A stretch of DNA of 33,027 nt, taken from Actinomycetes bacterium (GTDB lineage Bacteria > Actinomycetota > UBA4738). This document shows, piece after piece, positions 20,982-33,027 of this stretch (the first letter of the stretch is position 1; each line of letters starts with the position of its first letter). The notes beneath the pieces were generated by a model. It saw nothing but the letters and a program-made list of their open reading frames with translations, had not been told where the DNA came from and did not search any database. Both the position numbers and the translations under genes were made by a program. Location: the NCBI GenBank assembly GCA_021784765.1, contig JAJYHN010000163.1, forward strand, positions 1 through 33,027, given 5' to 3'.

Positions 20982-21838
20982 TAGTCTGTCGGCGAAATAG
21001 TGCGGTAGTGTGATGCATGCGAACTCTGCAGGCGTCGGCGTTGCCGGTGATAGCTGAGCAGCGGGCCGAGTTGACCCGGATGGCAAGCTCGACGGTCTTG
21101 CCGCATCGCAAGGTCGTGCAGGCAAGGGCGTTGCTGCTGGCCGCTGACGGCGTGGCCAACGAGGAGATCGCGCGGCGGGCTGAGGTCGACTCCGACACGG
21201 TGCGCCGCTGGCGCGCGCGGTTCGCCGCGGAGGGTCCCGCTGGCGTCGGGGTGATCGCGAAGGGCCGGGGTCGCAAGCCGTCGCTGCCGCCGGGCACAGT
21301 CGCCGAGGTGGTGCGGCTGACGATGACCGAGACGCCCGCGGATGGATCGACGCACTGGACGACCCGGTCGATGGCCCGGCGGGTCGGGATCGGCAAGGAT
21401 GCGGTGGCGCGGATCTGGGCCGACCACGACCTCAAGCCGTGGAAGGTCGACACGTTCAAGCTCAGCACCGACCCGCACTTCGAGGAGAAGCTGGTCGACG
21501 TCGTGGGGCTGTACCTGAACCCGCCGGCGCGGGCGGTGGTGTTCAGCTACGACGAGAAGACCCAGTGCCAGGCGTTGGACCGCACCCAGCCGACCTTGCC
21601 GATCAAGCCGGGCCGAGCGGGCACGATGACGCACGACTACAAGCGCAACGGCACCACCGACCTGTTCGCCGCCATGAACATCGCGACCGGGCAGGTGCTC
21701 ACCGGCTGCCAGAAGGGCCACGCGGCGACCGACGTGCTGCGCTTCTTCAAGCGGATCGACGCGTCGGTGCCGCGAGGGCTCGCGGTCCACGTCGTTCTCG
21801 ACAACCTGTCCGCGCAGCGCCACGCCCTCGCGCGCGGG
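20982..21838 (+). mobile_element. IS630-family insertion sequence remnant (right part missing)
   Basis: TAGTCTGTCGGCGAAATAGTG-type left end next to TA, followed by an IS630-type transposase lacking the C-terminal third. Ends approximate. Confidence 0.75.
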
Positions 21839-21859
21839 GGTGCTCCTCCAAGGAGCTGA
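21017..21859 (+). pseudogene. truncated IS630-family transposase
   Basis: HTH ANEEIARRAEVDSDTVRRWRARFAAEGPAGV; DDE first Asp SYDEKTQCQALDR; second Asp VHVVLDNLSAQ; homology ends here and the WLN...E region is absent. Confidence 0.85.
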
Positions 21860-22410: not shown

Positions 22411-23373
22411 CTATCTCGCGGCCGACGAGGCGCTGGCCCCCTCCCCGGATCCCCTCGGGCGCTCGACGGCCGGCCGGCCGTCTGCGCCCGCGAGCCACCC
22501 GAGCGAGGCCAGGGCGCCCACCGCGACGAGCGTGGCCGCGGCGGCGGCGAGGTGGGCGTCCTGCCAGACCTCGGGCGCCCGCAGGAGCCCGGTCACGGCG
22601 CCGATTGCTCCTGTGGCAGCGAGGAGCGCGACCGTCGCCGCAGCGAGCGGCCGCGCCCCACGCGTGGCAGGCCACCGGCGCCACGCGCGGACGGAGAAGG
22701 CGAGCATCGCCGTGCCGGCCGCGAGCCCCAGACCCCGGTGAACGAGCTGAAGGGCGACCAGGGGTCCAGCGACGCCCGCCACAGGGCACCCGGGCCAGCT
22801 GGGGCAGGTCGCGCTCGCCCCACCGTCGACCACCAGCGACCCCGACACGAGGAGCAGCAGAGCGCCGCCCGTCGCCCACCATCCCAGCGGACCCAGCCCG
22901 CGCGCCGGCGCCTCCTCGTGGGGGGCGAGGGCCGCCACCGCCGTGACCGTGACGAGCGAGAGCAGGACGAGCCCGGTCACGAGGTGGGCGGCGACGGTGG
23001 GCGGCGCGTTGTGCGCGAACACCGTGACGGCGCCGAGCACGATCTGGACCACGATCAGCCCGGCGCCGGCCAGGGCCGGCCGCGTCGCGACGGGCCGTGG
23101 ACGGCGCCGCAGGGCAATCAGGGCGGTGGCCACGACGCCGATCGTGACGGCCGCGGCGAGGTAGCGGTGGCTCTGCTCGAGCAGGGCGTGGAAGCGATCG
23201 ATCGGGCCGAGCTGTCCGTAGCAGAGCGGCCAGCCCGGACATCCCATCCCGGACTCGGTGACCCGCACGGTGCTGCCGAGCACCACGAGCGCATACGTCG
23301 CGACCGCCGTGGCGACCGCCAGCGCGCGCAGCGTCACATCCCGATGGCTCCCCGCCGCTCGCACCTGCATCAC
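22411..23373 (-). CDS. ctaA: heme A synthase (COX15/CtaA family)
   Basis: 320 aa polytopic; LGSTVRVTESGMGCPGWPLCYG, EQSHRYLAA, QIVLGAVTVFAHNAPPTVAAHLVTGL, LVHRGLGL. Confidence 0.93.
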   Translation of the reverse strand: MMQVRAAGSHRDVTLRALAVATAVATYALVVLGSTVRVTESGMGCPGWPLCYGQLGPIDRFHALLEQSHRYLAAAVTIGVVATALIALRRRPRPVATRPALAGAGLIVVQIVLGAVTVFAHNAPPTVAAHLVTGLVLLSLVTVTAVAALAPHEEAPARGLGPLGWWATGGALLLLVSGSLVVDGGASATCPSWPGCPVAGVAGPLVALQLVHRGLGLAAGTAMLAFSVRAWRRWPATRGARPLAAATVALLAATGAIGAVTGLLRAPEVWQDAHLAAAAATLVAVGALASLGWLAGADGRPAVERPRGSGEGASASSAAR

Positions 23374-23403: not shown

Positions 23404-23883
23404 TCACGCTCGTTCGGTCCGCGGCCGGCGGCGGTGGGAGTCCACCGGCGCGGGCACCCGGCCCTCGCGGATGGCCCGATCCTCGGCCGCGACGGCGTCG
23501 AGGGTTCCCCGCGCCAGCTGTTCGGCGATCGCCTGCCGCGCGGACAGCCAGATGGGGTGGAGGGGACAGACGTCCTCCCAATGACACGGGCCGCCCTGCA
23601 GCGCGCAGTCTCCGTCGGTGAGGGATCCCTCGAGCGCCTCGACGATCTCCAGAACCGAGATCTGCGACGCCGACCTGGCGAGCCGGTATCCCCCATTGCG
23701 ACTCGGGCTCGAGGTCACGAGATGGGCCCGTCGCAGCTCGCGAAGGACCTGCCGGAGGAAGTTCAGCGGCATCTCCATCCGCTCGGCGATCTCGGTCGCG
23801 GGGACCCGCTGGCCATCGGCGGACGCAAGATAGATCATGGCGCGCAGCCCGTAGTCGGTCCGATGGGTAGGAACGAGCTTCAT
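23404..23883 (-). CDS. Rrf2-family transcriptional regulator with three-Cys motif
   Basis: 159 aa; TDYGLRAMIYLAS...IAERMEMPLNFLRQVLRELRRAHLVTSSPSRNGGYRLAR; CALQGGPCHWEDVC. Confidence 0.93.
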   Translation of the reverse strand: MKLVPTHRTDYGLRAMIYLASADGQRVPATEIAERMEMPLNFLRQVLRELRRAHLVTSSPSRNGGYRLARSASQISVLEIVEALEGSLTDGDCALQGGPCHWEDVCPLHPIWLSARQAIAEQLARGTLDAVAAEDRAIREGRVPAPVDSHRRRPRTERA

Positions 23884-23932: not shown

Positions 23933-24553
23933 TCAGCTGACCTTCGGGCTCGCGACGAACAGCGTCGTGATCGCGGTGAGCACGGCCACCGCCGCCACCC
24001 AGCTCCAGACGTAGCCCATGAGCCGAACCTGGCCGAAGCGGGCGGCGTCGTACCGGCCCGCCCGCGCCCTGTTCCACAGCCCGAGGCCGAGCAGGCCGGT
24101 GACCACCAGGTGGAACAGGTGGTACCCGGCGAGGACGACGAACGACCCGGCGTAGGCGCCGTCCGACGCCCGGAACGGGAGCGCCGAGAGCTGCCACGCC
24201 TGCAGGACCGCATCGACGAGCAGCAGGGCCAGCGCGAGCGACGTCCCGGCGACGAGGCGGGCCCGGTCCCCCGCCCGGATGCCCCGCTCCCCCCACCGGT
24301 AGGCGAGGGCGCTCGCCACGATGACCGCCGCGATCGTCCACACGGCCCAGACGGGGGCGGTGTGGGTGCCCGCCGGGATCCACATGCCCTGCACGTTCAA
24401 CCCGCGGAGGTAGAAGTACGAGAACAGCAGGCAGAGGACGAAGACCGCGTCGGCGCCCAGGAAGAGCAGCACCGCGATGCGCTGCCGGTCCTCGACCAGC
24501 GCGGGGTCGTCGTGGGCGGGGGTCGCCGGCCCAGCAGAGGCCGCCATGCTCAT
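23933..24553 (-). CDS. coxC: cytochrome c oxidase subunit III
   Basis: 206 aa heme-copper oxidase subunit III family, ~5 TM; FVVLAGYHLFHLVVTG; ATGA overlap with coxA. Confidence 0.9.
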   Translation of the reverse strand: MSMAASAGPATPAHDDPALVEDRQRIAVLLFLGADAVFVLCLLFSYFYLRGLNVQGMWIPAGTHTAPVWAVWTIAAVIVASALAYRWGERGIRAGDRARLVAGTSLALALLLVDAVLQAWQLSALPFRASDGAYAGSFVVLAGYHLFHLVVTGLLGLGLWNRARAGRYDAARFGQVRLMGYVWSWVAAVAVLTAITTLFVASPKVS

Positions 24554-26469
24554 GGTGTCAACCTCCCAGGGTCAGCGAGTCCCGGCGAGCCCGGCCCGGC
24601 CCCGGTGGCCACGGAGGCCGCGACGGGCTGGACGGGCTCCCCGTACCCGTACGGATCCGACGTGACCACGGGGAGGACCTCGAAGTTCTCGAGGGGAACG
24701 GGGGTGGGGACCTGCCACTCGAGCGTCTTCGCCCCCCACGGGTTGGAGGTCGCGCGCTCCCCGTGGCGCCAGGACCAGATCACGTCGTACAGCAGGATCA
24801 GCATGCCGATCGCGAGGATGTAGGCGCCGATGGTTGCGACCAGGTTCCCCGTCGCGAACGTGGCCGGGTAGTCCGCGACGCGGCGCGGCTCTCCCTGCAG
24901 GCCGATGTAGAAGATCGCAAGGAAGGTGATGTTGAACCCGATCTGGGTGATCCAGAACGACACCTTGCCGAGCCGCTCGTCGAGCATCCGGCCCGTCATC
25001 TTCGGGAACCAGAAGCAGAGGGCCGCGAGCGCGCCCATCATCGCCCCGCCCATCAGCGTGAAGTGGAAGTGGGCGGTCACGAACAGCGAGCCGTGCAGCT
25101 GGTAGTCGACCGGGACGTCGGACAGGTAGATCCCGGTGATGCCGCCGATGATGAAGTTCCAGAGGAACGCGTAGACGAACATCATCGGCAGGCGGGTCCA
25201 GATGCGGCCGCGCCACATCGTGCCGATGATGACCAGGATCAGCAGGCCGGTCGGGATCGAGATCAGCTCGGTCGTCAGCATGAAGGGCCCGTTCAGGGCC
25301 GGGGCCCATCCCGTGGTGAACATGTGGTGGGCCCAGACGAAGACGCTGAGCGTCACGATGCCGATCTCCCCGATGATGGCGGCGCTGAAGCCGAACAGCG
25401 GCTTTCGCGAGAACACGGGGGTGATCTCCATGATCGCGGCGACCGCGGGCAGCAGGATCACGTACACCTCGGGGTGCCCCATGAGCCAGAACAGGTTCTC
25501 GTAGAGCCACGGGCTGCCGCCGCGCGCGGCGATGTAGAAGCTGGTGCCGATCGTCCGGTCCAGGCCCTCCAGGACCTGGGACGCCATGAACGCCGGCATG
25601 ACGAACAGGCCGAGGATGGAGGTGACCGCCACGCCCCACACGAAGATCGGCGTGCGGTTCCAGGTCATGCCCCGGGCGCGCATGGTCACGGCGGTGGTGA
25701 CGAGGTTGACCGCGCCGGCGCCGCTCGACACGACGAACAGGATGATCGTGATCAGGAAGGCGTCCATCCCCGGCGGCGCCTGGTCCGCCAGCGGCGCGTA
25801 GGCCGACCATCCCGTGGGGATGCCGCCGAGGAAGATGGCCGACAGCAGCACGGGGACGGCGGCGAACAGGGTCCAGAAGCTCAGCGCGTTCAGCCTCGGA
25901 AACGCCATGTCCCGGGCGCCGATCATGATCGGCATGACGAAGTTGCCGAACGGCCCGACGATCATGATGATCGTCGCGACGACCATCACGATGCCGTGCA
26001 GGCCGACGATCGCGTTGTAGGTGGCCGGCCCGAACGTGGAGGTGGGGCGGGCGGCCTCGGTCCGGATCAGCAGCGCGAGGATCCCGCCGACCCCGAAGGT
26101 CACCATGCCGAGCACCAGGTACTGCACGCCGATGACCTTGTGGTCGGTCGTGAACCGGAAGAAGCGGAACGCCCCCTGGTCCTTGCCGGCCATGAACTGC
26201 TCGTCGGCGTGCGTCAGGTCGCGCCCGAGCGCCCACCGCACCGGCCCGGTGAAGGCGCCGACCCCCACGAGGAACCCGAGGATCCAGCAGACCATCGCGA
26301 TCGAGATCGTCCGGTCATCGGCGTAGGGCCCCGACATGAGGGCCCGGGAGATGCCCCAGCCGAGGGCGGCCGCCACGATGCCGGCCACGACGCCCGTGAA
26401 CGCGTTCAGGCGGCGCATCACGCCCCCGCCCCGAAGGTGCTGGTCCCCCACGGTCGCGGTCTCCCCCAT
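24550..26469 (-). CDS. coxA: cytochrome c oxidase subunit I (divergent, K-channel residues substituted)
   Basis: Start at 26469 preceded by GGGAGGATCTG; FGNFVMPIMIGARDMAFPRLN, GHPEVYVILLP, VWAHHMFTTG, VTAHFHF, GEPRRVADYP; N-terminal extension with ~2 extra TM. Confidence 0.95.
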   Translation of the reverse strand: MGETATVGDQHLRGGGVMRRLNAFTGVVAGIVAAALGWGISRALMSGPYADDRTISIAMVCWILGFLVGVGAFTGPVRWALGRDLTHADEQFMAGKDQGAFRFFRFTTDHKVIGVQYLVLGMVTFGVGGILALLIRTEAARPTSTFGPATYNAIVGLHGIVMVVATIIMIVGPFGNFVMPIMIGARDMAFPRLNALSFWTLFAAVPVLLSAIFLGGIPTGWSAYAPLADQAPPGMDAFLITIILFVVSSGAGAVNLVTTAVTMRARGMTWNRTPIFVWGVAVTSILGLFVMPAFMASQVLEGLDRTIGTSFYIAARGGSPWLYENLFWLMGHPEVYVILLPAVAAIMEITPVFSRKPLFGFSAAIIGEIGIVTLSVFVWAHHMFTTGWAPALNGPFMLTTELISIPTGLLILVIIGTMWRGRIWTRLPMMFVYAFLWNFIIGGITGIYLSDVPVDYQLHGSLFVTAHFHFTLMGGAMMGALAALCFWFPKMTGRMLDERLGKVSFWITQIGFNITFLAIFYIGLQGEPRRVADYPATFATGNLVATIGAYILAIGMLILLYDVIWSWRHGERATSNPWGAKTLEWQVPTPVPLENFEVLPVVTSDPYGYGEPVQPVAASVATGAGPGSPGLADPGRLTP

Positions 26470-26515
26470 CAGATCCTCCCACCGTCCCACGATCCGTCGT
26501 GCCGCCGGCGGGCCG

Positions 26516-27286
26516 TCATCCGACCCGACCGCCGTTTGCCCGAACCCACGCCGTGAACGCGCTCCCGCTCACGACCTGAACGGCCGACTCCATGTAGGCG
26601 TGGTAGAGGCCGCAGAGCTCCGCGCACCGCACGTTGAACACGCCGAGCTGGTCCGGCGTGACGCCGACCTCGGTCGTGACCCCCGGGTTGGCATCGATCT
26701 TGATGCCCATGTTGGGGATCCAGAAGGAGTGGACGACGTCCTTCGAGGTCACCCGGAACAGGATGGACCGGCCGACCGGCAGCACCAGGGTCGCCGACTG
26801 GACGCCGCCGTCCTGCGGGTAGGCGTAGGTCCACATCCACTGCTGGCCGACCACGTCCACGACCAGCGGCTTCGGGGAGGCCTGCGCGGAGATCGCCTGC
26901 AGCTCCCCGAGCCCCCAGACCAGGAGGAAGAGCGTGAGGAAGCTGGAGACGAAGAGCCACGCGACCTGAACCGTCGTGTTGCCGCGGATCGGCGGGCCAT
27001 CCTCGGGCGGCACGTCGCTCGACCGATGGCGCCAGACGACGAGGCTGTAGAGCGCGATCCCCCACACGAGGGCCGCGACCGGCGCCGCCGCGACGGTGAA
27101 CACGATCACGGTGAGCCGGACCTCGTGCATGGTTCCCGACGCGGGTTGCGGCATGAGCCGCGGGGGGAGGAACAGCCCGAACAGCACCCCGGCGACCGTG
27201 ATGCCCGCCCAGATGAGCAGGATGTGGCCGACGTGCCCCCTCCACCACGCCCGCCGCTCCGGCGCCGTCCCCTGTGTCTCCCTCAT
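26516..27286 (-). CDS. coxB: cytochrome c oxidase subunit II (CuA)
   Basis: 256 aa; VVHSFWIPNMGIKIDANPG and CAELCGLYHAYM CuA motif, VGQQWMWTYAYP. Confidence 0.95.
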   Translation of the reverse strand: MRETQGTAPERRAWWRGHVGHILLIWAGITVAGVLFGLFLPPRLMPQPASGTMHEVRLTVIVFTVAAAPVAALVWGIALYSLVVWRHRSSDVPPEDGPPIRGNTTVQVAWLFVSSFLTLFLLVWGLGELQAISAQASPKPLVVDVVGQQWMWTYAYPQDGGVQSATLVLPVGRSILFRVTSKDVVHSFWIPNMGIKIDANPGVTTEVGVTPDQLGVFNVRCAELCGLYHAYMESAVQVVSGSAFTAWVRANGGRVG

Positions 27287-27320: not shown

Positions 27321-28004
27321 CTACCCGACGGTGAGCGTGCCGGCCATGTAGCCCTGCGTCGACATCGGGCCGCCGAAGCCCGCGACGCCGACGCCGCACG
27401 GGTACTCGCACTGCCAGACGTAGCGGCCCGGGCCGCCCGTGACGAACTGGAAGGTCACGATCACCGGGCGCGGGTAGCCGTTCGCGAGGTTCGGCGCCGA
27501 CGCCGGCACCGCGGGCAGCGGCACGTTCACGAACAGCGAGGTCTGATCCGTCGGGAACGTATGGATCGTGAATGTGTGCCCGATGTTGTTGGGATCCACG
27601 CCGCCGACGCGCCGGCCGTTCACCCACTCCACCCCCCCGACGGTGCCGCGGGCCGACGCGAAGAACGGGTTGAGGATCGTCCCGCCCGTGTCGTACTGGC
27701 GGATCGTGACGGTCACCAGCGCGTGCGCCGGCACCCACAGGCTCGTCGACGGCCCGTAGCTCACCCAATCGGGGTGGGCCCCGCCGCCCGACCCGTGCTC
27801 ACCGGCGAGGCTGTCGGGATAGGTGTCGAGCGTCAGGGACGCACGGACCAGGCGGCCCTCCGGCGTCGACACGTAGCCGTGGACGCTCGCCCGGAGCATG
27901 GCGGGCGAGGGCGAGGCGATCGCGAGCACCGCGGTGGTCGCGCCGACGACCACCGCGCCGAGCACGACCGTGACGACCACGCCGACGAGACGCCTCGCGC
28001 CCAT
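27321..28004 (-). CDS. membrane-anchored cupredoxin-like protein
   Basis: 227 aa; N-terminal TM; GHTFTIH...GRYVWQCEYPCGVGVAGFGGPMSTQGYM resembles a COX2/cupredoxin fold; RBS GGGAGGTAGGGGGGA before ATG. Confidence 0.75.
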   Translation of the reverse strand: MGARRLVGVVVTVVLGAVVVGATTAVLAIASPSPAMLRASVHGYVSTPEGRLVRASLTLDTYPDSLAGEHGSGGGAHPDWVSYGPSTSLWVPAHALVTVTIRQYDTGGTILNPFFASARGTVGGVEWVNGRRVGGVDPNNIGHTFTIHTFPTDQTSLFVNVPLPAVPASAPNLANGYPRPVIVTFQFVTGGPGRYVWQCEYPCGVGVAGFGGPMSTQGYMAGTLTVG

Positions 28005-28059
28005 TCCCCCCTACCTCCCCGAGGGCCCGGATGGGGTGTCCACCCGTGCGATCGCGCGG

Positions 28060-28088
28060 ATTCTGCGATGGACGCGTCTGTATGTCAA
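28060..28088 (-). promoter_or_regulatory. candidate sigma70-type promoter of the cupredoxin-coxBAC operon
   Basis: On the minus strand: TTGACA (28088-28083), 17-bp spacer, CAGAAT (28065-28060), ~55 bp upstream of the ATG at 28004. Confidence 0.55.
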
Positions 28089-28116
28089 GTCAGAAACGTC
28101 AGGAACTTTACGAGGA

Positions 28117-29022
28117 GTGCCCTCGCGCGCTAGGCTCACCGGCGAGTTGAGTCCCACGCTGCAGTTCCTCGGGTCCTGGACGTTCGATCCGCTCCTCGCG
28201 GGAGCCCTCGTCCTGGCGGGCGTCGGGTACCTCTGGGGCGTCCGCGTGGCCGCCCGCAGGAGGCCCGGGCCGCCCTGGCCCGCCCGCCGCACCACCTCGT
28301 TCCTGATCGGGCTCGCGCTCGTCTGGGTCGTCACGCTCGGGCCCATCGGCGCCTACGACGACGTCTTCTTCTGGTCCCACATGGCCCAGCACATCGTGCT
28401 GATGATGGTCGCGGCGCCGCTGCTCATGCTGGGCGCTCCGATCCTGCTGGCCCTGCGAGCGAGCACCCGCGCCTTCCGCCGAGCCTGGATCCTCCCGGTG
28501 CTGAACGGGCGGGTCGTCGCCTTCCTCACCCATCCCGTCGCCTCGTGGGTCATCTTCGCCGGGGTGCTGATGGGCACCCACTTCTCCCCCTTCTACGAGT
28601 TCGCCCTCGAGCACCCGAACGTCCACAACTACCTGGAGCACCCCCTGTATCTGGGGGCCGGGATCCTCTTCTACTGGCCGTTGCTGGACGGGAATCCCTC
28701 CAGGCGGAAGCTCCCCCATGTGGGACGCGTGCTGTCCATGTTCCTGATGATGGCGCCCGAGACCATGACGGGGTTCTTCATCTACTCGGCGGGACACGTG
28801 CTGTATCCCTTCTACGACTCGGTCGCCCGTCCGTTCGGACCGGGCCCACTGCGAGACCAGCAGTGGGGCGGTGCCCTCATGTGGGGCGGCAGCATGGTCA
28901 TCGACACCGTGTGGATCGCCGTCGCCGCCCTCGCGTGGTACCGGCACGAGGAGCGACGGGCCGTTCGCGTCGACCAGCGGGTGGCGCGGGAGCTCGCCGT
29001 CGCCGGACCGGGTCGCTCGTAG
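28117..29022 (+). CDS. ctaG: cytochrome c oxidase assembly factor CtaG-like (caa3_CtaG)
   Basis: Polytopic; SHMAQHIVLMMVAAPLLMLGAPILLALR, EHPLYLGAGILFYWPLLDGNPSRRKLPHVGRVLSMFLMMAPETMTGFFIY. Start is GTG 28117 or TTG 28147; uncertain. Confidence 0.88.
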   Translation: MPSRARLTGELSPTLQFLGSWTFDPLLAGALVLAGVGYLWGVRVAARRRPGPPWPARRTTSFLIGLALVWVVTLGPIGAYDDVFFWSHMAQHIVLMMVAAPLLMLGAPILLALRASTRAFRRAWILPVLNGRVVAFLTHPVASWVIFAGVLMGTHFSPFYEFALEHPNVHNYLEHPLYLGAGILFYWPLLDGNPSRRKLPHVGRVLSMFLMMAPETMTGFFIYSAGHVLYPFYDSVARPFGPGPLRDQQWGGALMWGGSMVIDTVWIAVAALAWYRHEERRAVRVDQRVARELAVAGPGRS

Positions 29023-32163: not shown

Positions 32164-33027
32164 TCAGCCGACGAGCGGGGCGAGCGCCATGGCGAGGAAC
32201 AGGGCGGCGAGGTAGGCGAGCGAGAAGTGGAACAGCACCCGGGCGCGGGAGGGGGTGGGATCGGCCCGGAGCCGCAGCGCGAGCCAGACGAAGGCCCCCC
32301 CGAGCACCAGGGCCGGGACGAGGTAGGCGAGCCCGAGCGTGCCCGAGGCATAGGGCGCGAGCGTCACCGCGACCAGCACGAGCGAGTAGCGAAGGATCTG
32401 GCGGGTGGTCTCGATCTCCCCGCGCACGACCGGCAGCATCGGGATGCCGGCGGCGGCGTAGTCGGCGCGCATCAAAAGGGCGAGGGCCCAAAAGTGCGGC
32501 GGGGTCCAGAAGAACACCGTGAGGAACAGCCACAGCGCCGGGATCGAGAGGTGCCCGGTGGCGGCGGCCCAGCCAACGAGCGGGGGGATCGCTCCGGCGG
32601 CGCCGCCGATCACGATGTTCCGGGGCGTCGAGCGCTTCAGCCATCCCGTGTAGACGAGGACGTAGACGAGGTTGCCGGCGAGGGCGAGCAGGGCGGCAAG
32701 GACGTTCACGAGCGAGGCGAGAAGGACGAAGGAGGCGGCCGACAGGGCAAGGCCGAACTCGAGGGCCGCCGAGGGCCCGACCCGGGTGGCGGCGACCGGA
32801 CGCGTGGAGGTCCTGAGCATCCGCCGGTCGACGTCGCGGTCCATCACGTGGTTCAGGGCGCTCGCGCCCCCCGAGGCGAGGGCCCCGCCGAGCATCGTGA
32901 GGGCGAGGGCGCGAAGGGAGGGGACCCCGTGCGCGGCGACGAACATGCCCCCGGCCGCGGTGACGAGCAGCAGCACCATGATCCGGGGCTTGGTGAGGGC
33001 GAGGTAGTCGCGCCAGTTCCCCAGGGG
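32164..33027 (-). CDS. ctaB: protoheme IX farnesyltransferase (heme O synthase), truncated by window edge
   Basis: LGNWRDYLALTKPRIMVLLLVTAAGG, GASALNHVMDRDVDRRMLRTSTRPVA, YTGWLKRSTPRNIVIGGAAGAIPPLVGW; frame open to position 33027. Confidence 0.95.
   Translation of the reverse strand, partial: PLGNWRDYLALTKPRIMVLLLVTAAGGMFVAAHGVPSLRALALTMLGGALASGGASALNHVMDRDVDRRMLRTSTRPVAATRVGPSAALEFGLALSAASFVLLASLVNVLAALLALAGNLVYVLVYTGWLKRSTPRNIVIGGAAGAIPPLVGWAAATGHLSIPALWLFLTVFFWTPPHFWALALLMRADYAAAGIPMLPVVRGEIETTRQILRYSLVLVAVTLAPYASGTLGLAYLVPALVLGGAFVWLALRLRADPTPSRARVLFHFSLAYLAALFLAMALAPLVG

Follow-up and report, generated by a model that had tools for sequence, protein, structure and literature searches.

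The oxidase operon studied here encodes a subunit I that has lost the lysine of the K-channel, and we lean towards the reading that the enzyme is a family-A-related CuA oxidase (aa3-like, with an additional pair of N-terminal helices) whose K-channel unit, namely E62 of subunit II (E62(II)), S255 and K319 in bovine numbering, is replaced by E310 and S313. A broader reading, attractive but held with more doubt, is that a helix VIII Glu-Ser relay constitutes an undescribed proton input in D-channel oxidases, with at least two origins, each accompanied by K-channel loss in two subunits, and with one subclade adding a modified Mg site and a cupredoxin-like subunit. It is usual to regard the K-channel lysine as essential to A-type oxidases, and the role of the channel is still debated, being seen as the supply of reductive-phase protons, as charge compensation, or as both. 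A natural Glu/Ser replacement coordinated with subunit II offers a ready-made test of this role. In addition, the signature of Leu, Ile, Val or Phe at 319 with Glu at 310 and Ser at 313 means that 'K-channel lost' labels and residue-based classifiers can hide an alternative path.

The oxidase operon and the residues of subunit I

The window, that is, the whole stretch of 33,027 nucleotides analysed, carries on its minus strand an aa3-type oxidase operon in the order 227-aa protein, ctaC, ctaD, ctaE, Rrf2 regulator and ctaA. On the plus strand beside it lies a divergent gene for a caa3-type CtaG, and a SCO domain is encoded farther along the window. The genes are as follows.

22411..23373, minus: ctaA, haem A synthase (COX15-CtaA Pfam, 4e-27)
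23933..24553, minus: ctaE, subunit III, overlapping ctaD by 4 bases (COX3 Pfam, 1.1e-12)
24550..26490, minus: ctaD, oxidase subunit I, 646 aa (Pfam COX1, E=1.7e-128)
26516..27286, minus: ctaC, subunit II (COX2 Pfam, 6.5e-22; TIGR02866 above cut-off; alignment)
27321..28004, minus: 227-aa membrane-anchored cupredoxin-like protein (alignment, AF2 model, Foldseek)
27898..29022, plus: caa3-type CtaG assembly factor, divergent, TM domain at residues 109-349 (Pfam, 4.4e-67)
32164..32979, minus: UbiA prenyltransferase (Pfam UbiA, 6.1e-61)

From its context, the UbiA gene is probably the haem O synthase gene ctaB. The longest open reading frame of ctaD begins with GTG at 26490, and an ATG at 26469 has a GGAGG motif ahead of it; the latter is probably the start, as the coordinate given in the initial annotation implied. 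The Rrf2-family regulator (23404-23883, minus strand) lies between ctaE and ctaA and has three Cys (DCALQGGPCHWEDVC). A helix-turn-helix/DDE_3 transposase-like open reading frame (21017-21859, plus strand) is found upstream of the oxidase cluster.

CtaD was aligned with bovine COX1, the reference being checked against PDB 1occ_A (one substitution, M to I), and the positions below follow from this alignment, together with the CtaD model and the alignment of CtaC.

26260..26403, minus: two extra N-terminal TM helices of CtaD, residues 30-77 (model)
25909..25911, minus: D194 = bovine D91, D-channel entrance, kept
25468..25470, minus: E341 = bovine E242, D-channel top, kept
25462..25464, minus: Y343 = bovine Y244, cross-link Tyr, kept (89/89 E-type, 89/89 K-type; types defined below)
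25429..25431, minus: M354, replacing K-channel S255
25366..25368, minus: E375 = bovine 277, helix VII, private to the window sequence
25267..25269, minus: E408 = bovine 310, helix VIII (89/89 E-type, 0/89 K-type)
25258..25260, minus: S411 = bovine 313, helix VIII (Ser in 89/89 E-type; Ala in 84 and Gly in 5 K-type)
25249..25251, minus: T414 = bovine T316, helix VIII, kept (84/89 E-type, Phe in 5)
25240..25242, minus: L417, replacing K-channel K319 (E-type: Leu 45, Ile 26, Val 10, Phe 8)
25090..25092, minus: G467, replacing Mg-site D369 (Gly in the cupredoxin-bearing subclade only)
26966..26968, minus: Q107 of CtaC, replacing the K-channel entry Glu, bovine E62(II) (alignment)

Besides these, CtaD retains the equivalents of H240, H290, H291, H61, H376 and H378, of N80, N98 and N163, and of R438 and R439. 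The residue assignments of the initial annotation are thus all confirmed: Leu at K319 with T316 kept (no gap falls in the helix VII-VIII segment of the alignment), Met at S255, Gly at D369, two membrane Glu where bovine has Met (E375 at M277 and E408 at M310), and an intact D-channel entrance, E242, cross-link Tyr, His ligands and Arg pair. The AF2 model of CtaD (pLDDT 92.7; Foldseek matches 2yev, 9gy6 and 7ate) places the extra helices at residues 30-51 and 57-77, and the matches of relatives begin near residue 20-35. Across the clade, metal ligands aside, the only conserved charged residues in the modelled membrane helices are E341, E355 (bovine 256) and E408.

E-type and K-type homologues and the origins of the exchange

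CtaD homologues were gathered from whole genomes and GTDB contigs, and were called E-type when they combine E310 and S313 with a hydrophobic residue at 319, and K-type when they have K319, no E310, and Ala or Gly at 313. In a first set (n=170 with clear state), columns 310, 313 and 319 are the only ones that separate the groups perfectly. Enlarging the set to 181 distinct sequences gives 89 E-type, 89 K-type and 3 of neither type, and among all of them E310 with S313 never occurs together with K319. On helix VIII, the polar sites in E-type are 310, 313 and nearly always 316, with 319 nonpolar, while those in K-type are 316 and 319, with 313 nonpolar and 310 nearly always so. Site 277 is mostly small in K-type (T/G/S) and bulky in both E-type lineages described below (F/I/M/L/V/Y), as if the lysine cavity had been filled. 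It follows that the Glu of the window at this site is no conserved second Glu: the other E-type sequences have one of the bulky residues, E375 is unique to the window sequence among the homologues, and its candidacy for a conserved path, raised by the initial annotation, was rejected.

The cross-link Tyr, His ligands and Arg pair are retained across the homologues, with an exception for the Arg pair in Ktedonobacteria, where L085, L086 and L088 have Trp for R439, the second Arg of the propionate pair. T316 is otherwise near-invariant, but is Phe in five E-type sequences from actinobacterial MAGs (L063, L068, L076, L080 and L083). The three sequences of neither type (L130, L150 and L151) have Gln or Ile at 319 and no E310, a third route to lysine loss, and in L150 and L151 D-channel residues are altered too. 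As these three lack both K319 and E310, loss of K319 need not bring E310.

The canonical K-channel has its entry at a subunit II Glu, bovine E62. The CtaC of the window keeps the CuA ligands and the E198 equivalent (CAELCGLYHAYM), and has Q107 at the entry position. Among operons with an alignable ctaC, the Glu is present in 41 of 41 K-type and in 0 of 86 E-type, which means that two proteins change together. K319, S255 and E62(II) therefore appear, from their distribution, to behave as one module. No substitute for E62(II) as the N-side entry was found in the E-type enzymes.

A CtaD tree built without columns 255, 310, 313 and 319 divides the exchange between two lineages that lie apart: the larger includes the window, and the smaller includes L207, L213 and their kin. 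The small lineage is nested in the K-type part, adjoining the K-type L136, and the well-supported branches require two or more changes of state. Joining all E-type sequences in one clade costs 82.6 log units and is rejected (AU p=0.0026, in a quick tree under one model). Since the small lineage is otherwise canonical (W323, F321, D369, and Ser or Thr at 255), the exchange is not merely a matter of shared ancestry. We read the two lineages as convergence, or as transfer of a stretch of helix VIII along with the matching subunit II; as an alternative to two origins, the helix VIII segment and ctaC could have recombined after a single origin. Whether by convergence or by transfer, the exchanged residues would form a functional module. 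With just two events, the 89 against 89 sequences do not amount to 178 independent observations.

A proposed helix VIII relay and competing readings

In canonical enzymes, helix VIII carries K319 and T316 at a spacing of three residues, and the two lead on to Tyr244. E310, S313 and T316 are likewise spaced by three, extending the T316-K319 stripe upward. In bovine structures positions 313, 316 and 317 contact haem a3, and from these contacts and helix periodicity E310 would lie close to the edge of the haem, level with the binuclear centre. We infer from sequence that E310 and S313, beside T316, probably serve as an alternative proton relay. E310 would act as an internal proton donor or acceptor near the binuclear centre, replacing K319 in the reductive phase, and its protons would reach Tyr244 via S313, T316 and a haem a3 side chain, in this putative order. 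A path via T316 is not obligatory, because of the five E-type sequences with Phe at this site. The D-channel is the generally accepted pumping route, and in the window enzyme, where it is intact, it would carry the pumped and the remaining chemical protons. In canonical K319M enzymes, reduction of haem a3 is blocked or not normal (PMC12901375), therefore a functional enzyme without K319 needs a replacement. Further support comes from the host's metagenome-assembled genome (1.94 Mb, 84% complete, 213 contigs), in which, at this completeness, the search for haem-copper and bd oxidases turned up two K-less enzymes and nothing else. The initial annotation had proposed a catalytically intact enzyme with a different second proton path. 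The retained ligands, the loss of the canonical K-channel in both subunits and the helix VIII Glu/Ser in two lineages speak for this proposal, while E375 and D369G drop out of it. A Lys or Glu supplied nearby, which had been named as counting against it, is half present, E408 being that Glu.

The strongest competitor, which we consider unlikely but worth weighing, is that all protons enter through the D-channel and that E310 and S313, without forming a path, have an electrostatic or packing role at haem a3, such as the charge compensation that K319 normally gives. The window CtaD fits this with D91, N80, N98, N163 and E242 intact, with a K-cavity that looks plugged at 277, 319 and 255, and with the entry E62(II) gone; moreover, movement of K319 is reported to compensate charge in the A to Pr step (PMC12901375). 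On the other hand, Glu and Ser are invariant (89/89, in two lineages), a stricter pattern than loose packing would call for. The second K-less oxidase of the host is L002 (with L112, contig C83), which falls in the same branch as L006 and L203; in this branch D91 is replaced by Arg or Lys and N98 by Glu, E242 is kept, and L002, L006 and L203 nevertheless keep E310 and S313. A D-channel serving all protons therefore fails there unless other residues serve.

Less probable still is a place for E310 on the exit side, where it would load or release protons close to haem a3 in K-less enzymes that pump differently. E310 lies at binuclear-centre depth by sequence, 9 residues (2.5 turns) above K319, and an aromatic residue occupies position 357 of helix IX in the two E-type lineages, both of which would suit such a role; but a conserved acidic partner toward the P side was not found, and the coupling with K319 and E62(II) speaks for a part in proton input. 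It is very improbable that the enzyme is no O2 reductase at all, but a relative of nitric oxide reductases or a scavenging enzyme. NOR-type relatives of family A do lose proton-channel residues and an Rrf2-family regulator sits in the operon; against this, the cross-link Tyr is present in 89/89 E-type sequences whereas eNOR has Gln (PMC8756737), the CuA ligands are kept, haem A synthesis genes are adjacent, and no homologue of the Rrf2 regulator was found in the oxidase loci of relatives. A search for HPEVQ covered 297 genomes of the phylum, but none of the 15 loci examined from it contained COX1, so that it has no bearing on this reading. Misalignment, a pseudogene or an assembly error has practically no chance of being right, in spite of a source that is a metagenome-assembled genome in 213 contigs, given the gapless alignment, intact operon, 89 distinct homologues alike and confident model. 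The exchange pattern is not chance or assembly error, because K319 is missing, and E310 and S313 are present, in 89 distinct homologues drawn from a large number of independent assemblies.

Known oxidases, the Mg site and the cupredoxin-like protein

With its COX1 fold and six invariant His ligands, CtaD falls in the haem-copper superfamily, and Y343, the cross-link Tyr, marks it as an oxygen reductase rather than a NOR; the Gln by which eNOR is recognized is absent, as all homologues have Tyr. The D-channel Glu of type A1 (E278 in Paracoccus, E242 in bovine) is present. The type A1 K-channel of Paracoccus comprises Lys354, Thr351, Ser291 and Tyr280 (PMC3084760, Table 2); in CtaD the Lys is Leu and the Ser is Met, while Thr and Tyr are kept, so that CtaD is not canonical A1 by residue definition. 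By homology and by its D-channel, CtaD belongs with family A; its score for TIGR02891 CtaD_CoxA is 583.5 bits, under the curated cut-off of 670.75. Types B and C do not apply, since the D-channel is intact and A-type chains are matched far better. The two extra N-terminal TM helices of the model are those that define '2TM' COX1.

Compared with A1 oxidases (bovine, Paracoccus, Rhodobacter and Mycobacterium aa3), the window enzyme has in common the fold, the His, CuB and haem ligands, Tyr244, the D-channel with E242 and a CuA subunit II; it differs in lacking K319, S255 and E62(II) and in having E310, S313, two extra helices and Gly369. The ba3 and cbb3 oxidases have a K-route rebuilt with Thr/Ser/Tyr and no D-channel (PMC3084760). 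The window enzyme resembles these B- and C-type oxidases in a rebuilt K-route, but differs from them by its Glu/Ser and its intact D-channel. Degli Esposti et al. 2021 (PMC8239418) describe '2TM' COX1, including the COX of iron oxidisers, with gene clusters having a caa3-type CtaG beside the operon and a membrane-bound cupredoxin, and report K-channel variants and losses in family A. The window is similar in its two extra helices, adjacent CtaG and membrane cupredoxin-like protein. The exchange of K319 and E62(II) for E310 and S313 was not found in the literature searched, whose reach does not include the published listing of '2TM' K-channel variants; K-channel variants and '2TM' COX1 are already known, and the coupled exchange is no more than a candidate for novelty. 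No solved structure with the E310 motif was found, and the best structure match for the helix VII-VIII segment is Thermus caa3, where the sequence reads TALIAVPTGVK. No match from a plasmid search for named E-type examples reached 60% identity.

The initial annotation had listed D369G together with the K-channel changes. D369G is found in the window's own clade and in the branch of L002, L006 and L203, while the other E-type sequences keep D369, and a homologue of the 227-aa protein lies upstream of ctaC in 54 of 54 G369 loci with enough upstream sequence but is absent in 15 of 16 D369 loci, the exception (L099) being a marginal match. D369G was therefore rejected as a component of the exchange: it marks the cupredoxin-bearing subclade, to which it is confined, and is a trait separate from the K-channel exchange.

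The 227-aa protein has no Pfam or NCBIfam match. Its model (AF2 pLDDT 86.8) consists of one N-terminal helix and a beta-sandwich, with Foldseek matches to auracyanin, rusticyanin and the ba3 CuA domain, AcoP coming lower, at rank 44. The residues invariant in the alignment are H143, C199, C203, M214 and M220. Measured against the CuA motif (C-x3-C-x3-H-x2-M with a core His), C-x3-C and H143 are present and the loop His is absent. The protein resembles AcoP of Acidithiobacillus ferrooxidans in being, by gene and model, a membrane-anchored cupredoxin in an oxidase cluster, although no sequence match between the two was found. AcoP has the motif C-x6-H-x4-M (PMC4059628), with H85 as a further ligand, whereas the loop here has C199-x3-C203 and the two invariant Met, M214 and M220, without His. 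We infer from sequence and model that the protein may be an extra electron-transfer or copper-handling subunit. In actinobacterial MAGs that also have an E-type oxidase (L160, L163 and L165), the K-type oxidase has SAS for HDT at 368-370, so that D369 is changed to Ala by a separate route.
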